A stretch of DNA of 64,000 nucleotides from Acidobacteriota bacterium (GTDB lineage: Bacteria > Acidobacteriota > Terriglobia > Terriglobales > Acidobacteriaceae), in contig JAJZDM010000001.1 in assembly GCA_021806005.1 (NCBI GenBank), forward strand, positions 62,001-126,000, written 5' to 3'. The notes under the pieces were generated by a model, which worked only from the letters and a program-made list of their open reading frames with translations, was not told the origin of the DNA and did no database searches. Each line of letters begins with the position of its first letter. Within the stretch, counting starts at the first letter, position 1. The position numbers and the translations under genes are program-made. Shown here piece after piece: positions 35,670 to 47,607 of this stretch.

Positions 35670-36411
35670 CACTGACATCTCCTTGCAGGATGCCTTGAAT
35701 ATTGCATCCATCTTTAGACTGGGAAGCGATGCGGGGCCTTCCAGCAGCACTTCACGTTGATGGTTTGCAACTGCATTTCGGCACAGAGGCCGGTGGGGAT
35801 AAGCAGCCACGGGGAGAAAGCAAGGGTGAGGCGTGACTGAGACGATGAACTGAGGTTTTGCTGAGCCGGGGTTCTGCTTCCTCGAGGCAGATCCCGTGTC
35901 CAGTCCTGAAAGAAGAGGCAGCTTGCTGCCCGGGCCTTCAAGGCTTTGAGATTCGCAACCGTGTTCCTCCTGCGCGGATGCTGGGCGCTCGCAGAACTGC
36001 GAATGCACCCTGGCTTTCGCCATTGCGTTATCTGTGGATCTGCGTCTCACGAGTTGCAATTAAGCTGCCAAACGCAAAGAGAGGAAACAGCCCACATTTG
36101 ATGGGGTGATGTCTCACTCCATCAAATGCTGTGCACTTTGTTGCATATTTCGAGGGAAAAGATGGTGCAGCCTGGAGGCTCCCGAAGTTTGGGGGATGCC
36201 CAGGAGCTGACTGCGCCGGACGGAAATGCAGAACCGGAGTTGCTTTGCCCACGATCCGTTCTGGTTCTGCGCGATGGCGCTGGCTTTACGGCGGAACTCC
36301 CCGGTGCAGCCATGCCGCGACCTCTGGCTCTCCGCCGGCGGGTTTCCTGTCGGGGTGAAGCCAGAGGCCTGGGAAGGTTCCGAGAAATCCGGATAATGCG
36401 TGACGGAGACT

Positions 36412-36525
36412 TATAGCTATCTCCGTCTTGATGGGCCCTCGAAGCGGGCTTATTGTGGTGTTTTCGTTGGGCAGGATGCCCATGAAGGTCGAGGCATTGG
36501 GTGTACCTGCGCAGGAGACGCTTTA
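36412..36525. repeat. Structured intergenic repeat, copy A (about 114 nt)
   Basis: Aligns along its full length to 46693-46808; shares CGAAG..GGCTT, GG(T/C)GTTTTC, AGGTCGA(G/A)GCATT and CTTTAG blocks; terminal inverted-repeat arms. Confidence 0.7.
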
Positions 36526-37293
36526 GCGGAGATTGAAGAAACCGCCATCGATCGGGTAATCGACGCCGGTGATGAAGCCGGCTGCGTTGGAGCAGAGATA
36601 GAGCGCCAGCCATGCGATCTCTTCAGGGCGGCCCATGCGGCCGATGGGCTGAGCTCTCTCCAGCTTGTGCATCATCTCCGCCTCCTGGCCGGGGTAGGTG
36701 CGGGCGAGAAAGCCATCGACGAAGGGGGTGTGGACGCGGGCCGGGGAGATGCAGTTGCAGCGTATTCCGTCGGCCAGGTAGTCGCGCGCCACCGAGAGCG
36801 TCATGGCCAGGACGGCGCCCTTGGTCATGGAGTAGGCGAATCGGTCGGGAATGCCGGCCGTGGCGGCGATGGACGCCAGATTGACGATGGCGCCGCCGCT
36901 CTGCCGCATGCGGCTGACAGCGGCCTGCATGGTCAGGAAGGTGCCCCGCACGTTGACGCGGTACAGGCGGTCCAGGTCATCCAGGGTGGTGGTGAGCAGC
37001 GTTCCGATGTGGGCGATGCCGGCGCTGTTGACCAGCAGATCGACGCGGCCTGCTGCTGTGAAGGCCTGTTCGACGCTGGCGGGGTCGGTGACGTCGCAGG
37101 CGATGCCGCGCCCGGGAAGAGAGAGCGATGCGGCAGCTTCAGAGGCCTGATCTGCAGCCAGGTCGAGAATGGTGACCAGGGCTCCGGCATCGGCGAAGGC
37201 GCGGGCGGTGGCGAGGCCGATGCCGCTGGCGGCTCCGGTAATGACGGCATGCTTTCCGGCGAGGGTGAAGGGGTGAGAGCTTTCAATGTTCAT
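36523..37293 (-). CDS. SDR-family oxidoreductase
   Basis: AVITGAASGIGLATARAFADAG; YSMTKGAVLAMTLS; IDGGFFNLR C-terminus. Confidence 0.85.
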   Translation of the reverse strand: MNIESSHPFTLAGKHAVITGAASGIGLATARAFADAGALVTILDLAADQASEAAASLSLPGRGIACDVTDPASVEQAFTAAGRVDLLVNSAGIAHIGTLLTTTLDDLDRLYRVNVRGTFLTMQAAVSRMRQSGGAIVNLASIAATAGIPDRFAYSMTKGAVLAMTLSVARDYLADGIRCNCISPARVHTPFVDGFLARTYPGQEAEMMHKLERAQPIGRMGRPEEIAWLALYLCSNAAGFITGVDYPIDGGFFNLR

Positions 37294-45934: not shown

Positions 45935-46602
45935 GCGAGTTGCTGAGGCTGGAAGCGGCCGGAGTTCTCTTTGATATGGATGGGGTGCTGATCAGCTCCA
46001 TCGGCAGCGTGAATCGCTCCTGGAGGCTCTGGGCGGAGTACTATGGGCTCCCCGATGCTTCCACGCTGGAGGTGCCGCACGGCACCAGAGCCATTGAGAT
46101 TGTGGCCAGGCTGAAGCCCGATCTGGATCCGGCGGAGGGACTGCGCCGGATTGAGGAGATGGAGATCGAGGACGTGGCAGACATCGCGGCTCTGCCGGGC
46201 GCACGCGCCCTGCTGCAGCATCTGCCTGCCCGGCGCTGGACGATTGTCACCTCGGCGACCTTCCGCCTGATGTTGACCAGGCTGAAGGCGGCAGACATCC
46301 CGATTCCGGAGCGCATCATCAGTGCGGAGTCGGTGGAGCGGGGGAAGCCGGACCCGGAGCCGTATCGCCGTGGAGCGGAGCTGATCCAGGCATCTCCAGG
46401 CGACTGCATCGTGGTAGAAGACGCTCCCAGCGGCGTGGCTGCGGGTGTAGCCGCCGGCTGCCGCGTGCTGGGGGTGCTGGGCACCCACGACGAGGCGGAG
46501 TTGCGGGCGATGGGCGCGAGCTGGGTCGTGCGGTCGCTGGAGGATGTTCGCTCGGTTGCCAGCGCGAAGGGCGTGGCCCTGGATATCCTTTTGCAGAGCT
46601 GA
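45931..46602 (+). CDS. HAD-family sugar phosphatase
   Basis: GTG start overlapping the upstream TGA; GVLFDMDGVLISS; GKPDPEPYRRGAELI; VVEDAPSGVAAGVAAG. Confidence 0.9.
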   Translation: MSELLRLEAAGVLFDMDGVLISSIGSVNRSWRLWAEYYGLPDASTLEVPHGTRAIEIVARLKPDLDPAEGLRRIEEMEIEDVADIAALPGARALLQHLPARRWTIVTSATFRLMLTRLKAADIPIPERIISAESVERGKPDPEPYRRGAELIQASPGDCIVVEDAPSGVAAGVAAGCRVLGVLGTHDEAELRAMGASWVVRSLEDVRSVASAKGVALDILLQS

Positions 46603-46692: not shown

Positions 46693-46808
46693 TAAAGCAT
46701 TTTCAGTGTTGACGGGTATCCCGAAGATGGCTTGCGGTGGCGTTTTCATTTTTGGGAAAACGCCCAAAAGGTCGAAGCATTCGGCGCACCTACACTGAAA
46801 ATTCTTTA
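46693..46808. repeat. Structured intergenic repeat, copy B (116 nt)
   Basis: TAAAGCATTTTCAGTGT ... ACACTGAAAATTCTTTA closing inverted repeat (16/17); internal CGGG-tat-CCCG, GGCGTTTTC/GAAAACGCC or TTTTGGG/CCCAAAA, and CGAA-gca-TTCG hairpins; homologous to 36412-36525. Confidence 0.75.
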
Positions 46809-46854: not shown

Positions 46855-47607
46855 TCAGAATCTGCCGGTGTTGCGTTCGAGGAGAATCTTCTCGACACGC
46901 CGGAGGTCATCTTCCGTATCCACGCCGATCGTGTTGTGCTCGGTTTCGGCGACGTAGATGTCGATGCCGTTCTCGAGGAGACGCAGTTGCTCGAGCCGCT
47001 CGGAGATCTCCAGTTGGCTGGGGTGGAGAGAGGCAAAGCGCTCCAGCGCCGCCTTGCGATAGGCGTAGAGTCCCAGGTGCTTCCAGTAGGTCGCGCTGCC
47101 GGATCCGTCGCGATCGAAGGGGATGGAGGCGCGCGAGAAGTAGAGCGCCCGCCCGTCCAGCGCGGTGACCACCTTGACCGTATTGGGATTGGCGACCTCG
47201 CCGGCAGGGCAGCGTACCTTCGGGGTGGTCACCTGCACGTGCGGGGCAGAAAACGGCGCCAGAATCGCCTGGATGTGGCTGGGTAGCAGCAGCGGCTCGT
47301 CCCCCTGGATGTTGACGTAGATATCGGCATCCACCAGACGGGAGACCGCATGCAGGCGGTCGGTGCCGCTGGGGAGGTCCGGCGAGGTCATCAGACAGCT
47401 CCAGCCTCGCTGCGAGCACTCCTGGTGCACCTCCAGGGAGTCCGTTGCGACGATAACCTGATCCAGCGCGGCGCATTGCTGCGCGGCGCGATAGACCCAG
47501 GCGAGCATGGGTTCGCCAGCCATGAGGCGCAGAACCTTGCCGGGAAGACGTGTGGAGGCCAGGCGTGCCGGAATGACGCCTACGATGCGGGGATAGCTGG
47601 AGCTCAT
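46855..47607 (-). CDS. kdsB: 3-deoxy-manno-octulosonate cytidylyltransferase
   Basis: VGVIPARLASTRLPGKVLRLMAGEPMLAWVY; VNIQGDEPLL; LGLYAYRKAALERFA. Confidence 0.95.
   Translation of the reverse strand: MSSSYPRIVGVIPARLASTRLPGKVLRLMAGEPMLAWVYRAAQQCAALDQVIVATDSLEVHQECSQRGWSCLMTSPDLPSGTDRLHAVSRLVDADIYVNIQGDEPLLLPSHIQAILAPFSAPHVQVTTPKVRCPAGEVANPNTVKVVTALDGRALYFSRASIPFDRDGSGSATYWKHLGLYAYRKAALERFASLHPSQLEISERLEQLRLLENGIDIYVAETEHNTIGVDTEDDLRRVEKILLERNTGRF

Follow-up and report, generated by a model that had tools for sequence, protein, structure and literature searches.

A probable TA-tipped miniature transposable element at gene 3' ends and stop codons in an acidobacterial genus

Results

The window, the whole 64,000-nt stretch of acidobacterial DNA that we analyzed, contains two related palindromic sequences, copy A and copy B (Table 1). 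Copy A runs into the 3' end of a short-chain dehydrogenase (SDR) gene whose nearest relatives are acidobacterial, and copy B lies between convergent genes for a HAD hydrolase and a cytidylyltransferase. A first-pass annotation made from the letters alone had described the two as copies of one element that share several motifs and sit 3' of minus-strand genes, with copy A overlapping the SDR stop codon. All of this held: the coordinates were exact, the shared motifs are present, both copies follow minus-strand genes, and the SDR stop lies inside copy A. Their alignment spans 119 columns, of which 81 are identical, and scores 39.5, compared to a mean of -7.0 (standard deviation, 4.2) and a maximum of 7.5 among 2,000 shuffles. 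The gap beside copy A holds two more palindromes, at window positions 36096-36136 (CATTTGATGG...CCATCAAATG) and 36320-36370 (CCTCTGGCT...AGCCAGAGG). In two relatives (loci L221 and L222; genomes G003 and G010), the position corresponding to copy A, just 3' of the SDR stop, carries GCATCTTCC...TCGCCT...GGGCATCTCCCC, which looks like a degraded remnant of the element.

Table 1. Coordinates of copies A and B, their parts, and neighboring genes in the window
Feature	Position	Strand	Basis and remarks
Copy A, probable MITE, complete but old and diverged	36412..36525	+	114 nt from TA to TA; genome-wide hits by BLAST and covariance model; boundaries from 91-copy alignment
Copy A, left terminal inverted repeat, decayed	36412..36428	+	Family alignment
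Copy A, right terminal inverted repeat	36509..36525	-	Family alignment; minus-strand reading starts TAA
Copy A, inner hairpin, decayed to wobbles	36457..36481	+	Family form GGCGTTTTC...GAAAACGCC
SDR gene stop codon TAA, from right end of copy A	36523..36525	-	Gene call; orthologues stop at same residue with TGA or TAG
SDR gene, 3' end in copy A	36523..37293	-	PF13561, 4e-59; full-length orthologues in genus
Copy B, probable MITE	46693..46808	+	116 nt; convergent genes on either side; model score 119 bits
Cytidylyltransferase gene (KdsB-like by our reading)	46855..47607	-	PF02348, 1e-55; end 46 bp from copy B
HAD hydrolase gene	45976..46602	+	PF13419, 1.7e-15; end 90 bp from copy B

To size the family, we searched the genome of origin (212 contigs, 4.16 Mb). 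Copy A as a query returned 40 matches, and a covariance model built from 20 copies returned 123 at an E value of ≤0.1, a few of which arise from palindromic copies read in the opposite direction; this search puts the element at about 110 to 120 copies. The genome-wide family that had been predicted from two copies is thus real. Of 98 loci retrieved, the 91 strongest copies served for counting. Most copies are 114 to 118 bp long, with no coding capacity for a transposase. This genome has copies that are 96 to 97% identical to each other, a near-identity that shows recent spread. Of 28 genomes of the genus, 15 contain relatives of the element; 33 genomes from outside the genus contain none. Against Rfam covariance models, copy A had no match up to an E value of 1, and six other loci had none at the gathering score. 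At one locus (L163; G000:C140:37074-37302) two abutting copies have one TA in common, as would result from insertion of one copy at the very end of the other, and in another genome (G022, L279, at about 1480 to 1640) a hairpin resembling an intrinsic terminator (AAAAGACCTCGG...CCGAGGTCTTTT) has a recent copy in its loop.

The element is bounded by terminal inverted repeats of about 17 bp, with TA at each end, and these repeats match one another within each subfamily. They read TATGGCATTTTCGGTGT and TAAGGCAGTTTCGGTGT in this genome; the family in G002 and G022, which are close relatives, has the ends TAGAGCATTTTCCCTGT, TAGAGCAAATCTCCTGT, and TAGAGCAAATTTCCTGT, each with a near-perfect complement opposite. 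Among the 65 copies scoring above 100 bits, the TA is strongly conserved at the start (60 T, 58 A) and at the end (60 T, 55 A), and the flanking bases are constrained as well, with C or T on the left in 63 of 65 and G on the right in 48 of 65.

Copy locations differ between sister genomes. In a comparison of G002 with G022, the common copies have flanks that are 96 to 98% identical, and the majority of the copies examined are unshared. We joined the flanks of 16 unshared copies at one TA and queried both genomes with the result. Three full-length, gap-free empty sites were recovered (177/182, 174/182, and 167/182 identical positions), each with a single TA where the filled site has two. The element therefore inserts at one TA and ends up flanked by two, an outcome in which duplication of the TA and a TA carried by the element look alike. 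A rougher empty case lies 3' of the copy-B gene, where G023 has a copy and G003 has none. No exact empty site was found for copy A or copy B themselves, as the relatives that lack the element there are too diverged. The first-pass annotation, which viewed the element as a structured RNA at gene 3' ends with a fold maintained by selection, had itself set transposition footprints against that view; such footprints are what we found, in the TA at both ends and in the precise empty sites. We conclude that copy A is very probably one insertion of a MITE of about 116 bp, a nonautonomous transposable element restricted to the genus.

Placement relative to genes was assessed with a simple gene caller trained on the same loci. 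None of the 91 copies lies inside a called gene, and 44 of the 86 copies with two neighbors lie between convergent genes. When insertions at stop codons (described below) are excluded (n = 56), convergent gaps hold 24 copies, compared to 10.5 expected by length, and divergent gaps hold 6, compared to 15.6 expected. The bias toward gene 3' ends that the first-pass annotation had proposed to check is therefore present, and the deficit in divergent gaps looks as if promoter insertions had been removed.

Many insertions fall on the stop codon itself. In 29 of the 91 scored copies the right end supplies the stop codon of a gene, always with an overlap of exactly three bases; the remaining right ends in the neighborhood of gene ends vary in position. 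The left end, which reads TAT (no stop) in 68 of 91 copies, supplies a stop only once among the 91, in a copy that starts TAA, so that all 30 stop overlaps involve ends that themselves read a stop. In G002 and G022, where both ends can usually be read as stops (the left as TAG), left ends supply stops too. At the three empty sites a native TAA, TAA, or TAG is present, and the protein ends at the same residue. Likewise, SDR orthologues in G003, G010, G013, and G004 have the same final residue and stop with TGA or TAG. One stop thus replaced another. Some of the 29 stop-supplied genes, for most of which there is no orthologue length comparison, may be truncations.

Part of this pattern follows from the preferred insertion target, YTA-G. 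Read on the opposite strand, the target is CTAR, which includes any TAA or TAG preceded by C, and CTAA or CTAG stands at 47 of 422 free gene ends. Measured as occupied to free CTAR sites, stop codons (29:47) are filled as often as convergent gaps (24:43; P = 0.86), so that stop codons seem to be safe places to insert and not places of special attraction. The same comparison bears on the idea that the element acts as a terminator of transcription in both directions and was recruited to the ends of genes. The convergent gene pairs noted above fit such a role, as does one terminator-like pattern on the plus strand within copy A. In the consensus, however, neither strand shows a strong hairpin followed by a U tract, and equal occupancy is what would be expected if both kinds of site were merely harmless. 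We consider this explanation highly improbable.

The target is also oriented. Outside stop codons, the base before the TA is C or T in a ratio of 14:24 on the left, compared to 21:2 for the matching base on the right (P = 4e-5), and a T two bases out from the element is specific to the left (P = 0.008). The orientation of the element thus follows the target sequence (YTA left, G right), which is odd for a symmetric enzyme that duplicates TA. This polarity is our reason for weighing a tyrosine transposase or another directed mechanism. In IS200/IS605 elements the left and right cleavage sites match. By analogy, the element could be of the REP/TIR type, moved by a Y1 (IS200-like) tyrosine transposase that cuts after YYTA, in which case the second TA would be the element's own and nothing would be duplicated. 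Besides the oriented target, the left YTA does match the right end of the element (TTA/CTA), in the manner of those cleavage sites. TIRs move with TIRYT tyrosine transposases, which are present, with inverted repeats, in Granulicella mallensis, and the ends of GTAG REPs (RAYT) often provide a TAG stop (PMC3733652). Against this, inverted repeats that match right up to their outermost bases are a typical trait of DDE elements, and 36 copies in G002 show no replication-strand bias (20 versus 16, by a hand count with the origin assumed at coordinate 1). The sole Y1 gene found in G002 (G002:C1:915251-915923; 220 kb scanned) has unrelated 35-bp repeats and was rejected as a partner. Together these points make movement by a Y1 enzyme unlikely.

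We also looked for an enzyme that could move the element as a MITE. Neither this genome nor the closed genome G002 yielded a transposase with the element's ends. Three DDE_3 (IS630-type) fragments at or near contig ends (L119, L120, and L121) have termini ATTGATCCGGC..GGAAGGA, which differ from those of the element, and were rejected as partners that would make it an IS630/Tc1-mariner MITE; relatives gave IS630-type hits as well. Solitary ends in G002 were likewise rejected as termini of a full-length element, as no transposase adjoins them by gene call or from the start of the translations. The Y1 transposase gene of G002 (PF01797; L387 15026-15817, G002:C1 about 915026-915817) is flanked by its 35-bp inverted repeats, and an extra repeat pair beside it forms a long palindrome.

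The view of the element as a structured RNA draws support from the strong 3' bias of the copies and from their folding. On both strands, copy B and the consensus give better folds than shuffled sequences (z = -2.5 to -4.6), and in some copies both stems carry compensatory changes. The arms pair on either strand, as in a palindrome, and the plus strand of copy A folds only weakly better than its shuffles (z = -1.6). In copy A, the first-pass annotation had read TCTCC/GGAGA as a compensated replacement of the closing stem. This pairing exists, but only with a one-base slip relative to copy B and the family; the homologous columns of copy A contain the mismatches C10/A109 and C13/A106 and two wobbles.

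Across 133 distinct copies from seven genomes, several terminal pairs, among them 13/104, 4/113, 14/103, 11/106, and 12/105, occur in two or three Watson-Crick states, and complementary arms do change together across subfamilies, as had been claimed. To separate such changes from shared ancestry, we used a tree-aware shuffle of our own, in which substitutions are redistributed randomly on the tree; the tree, built from 116 columns, is weak, and the values that follow are to be read with this in mind. Among all column pairs only 13/104 stands out, with an E value of about 0.06 and five joint changes. Scaling to the 26 proposed pairs makes 13/104 significant and leaves 14/103 borderline, and none of the pairs in the inner hairpin is significant. 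Under this shuffle, compensation that stands out from shared ancestry was seen only at 13/104 and perhaps 14/103, both of which belong to the terminal inverted repeats. There, any transposon should have matching ends, as recognition of both by one transposase predicts.

An asymmetry of wobbles that might have marked the transcribed strand was suggestive at 20 copies and was gone at 133. G-U versus A-C pairs in the inner stem number 50 to 38, indicating no clear preferred RNA strand. The claim that covariation favors selection on structure is unsupported, and because copies are also polymorphic between sister genomes rather than held at orthologous sites, we judge a selected RNA structure to be very unlikely.

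Discussion

As a mobile element, the family resembles several known systems. ERIC (also IRU or RU-1) is an enterobacterial MITE of 127 bp, an imperfect palindrome with TA tips and a target duplication, which is intergenic and transcribed, encodes no proteins of its own, and is listed with terminal repeats of 7 bp (PMC2229807). Our element is similar in size, palindromic form, TA tips, apparent target duplication, location, and absence of its own proteins; it differs in phylum, in terminal repeats of about 17 bp rather than 7 bp, and in its frequent insertion at stop codons, and the comparison is one of form. RUP of Streptococcus pneumoniae and NEMIS/Correia of Neisseria, which are nonautonomous and about 100 to 155 bp long with inverted repeats, TA tips, and duplication (PMC2229807), share with it the nonautonomous state, similar size, inverted repeats, TA tips, and apparent duplication. 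RUP has a likely partner in IS630-Spn1, whereas the IS630-type fragments here have ends unlike those of the element; an autonomous partner is known for only some families of this class and is thus not a required feature. GTAG REPs lie between convergent and codirectional genes (PMC3733652), and our element similarly occurs between convergent genes and supplies stop codons, but REPs are 20 to 40 bp long with a GTAG tag, compared to about 116 bp with TA tips. We regard the element as a new member of the ERIC/RUP/NEMIS-type class of TA-tipped MITEs; no description of it was found in the literature searched.

These observations suggest how the family may have come to its present distribution. A transposase acting in trans would mobilize the element. 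The preferred target is YTA-G, so that a TAA or TAG preceded by C presents a target on the other strand. Where an end reading TAA or TAG abuts the gene, the stop codon is rebuilt and the length of the protein kept. Selection would presumably clear the element from coding sequence and promoters; the copies that persist downstream of genes are probably transcribed as 3' hairpins. The two ends of a subfamily would match through binding by the same transposase, not through conservation of an RNA fold. We also entertain, as a rather doubtful idea, a directed insertion in which the machinery reads YTA-G one way and the element's ends evolved to rebuild a C-preceded stop. Were this true, the element would be one adapted to stop codons as safe sites, with an enzyme unlike known TA-duplicating transposases in its oriented choice of target.

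For RNA searches the family is a caution, since subfamilies of a palindromic transposon mimic compensatory base changes. With it, acidobacterial genomes, for which the literature searched holds no such MITE, gain a mobile element with defined boundaries. The family also explains why the same palindrome stands at the 3' end of many genes in the genus. Its insertions at stop codons, where empty sister genomes still show the native stop, offer a clear natural example of harmless entry by a transposon into a dense bacterial genome.
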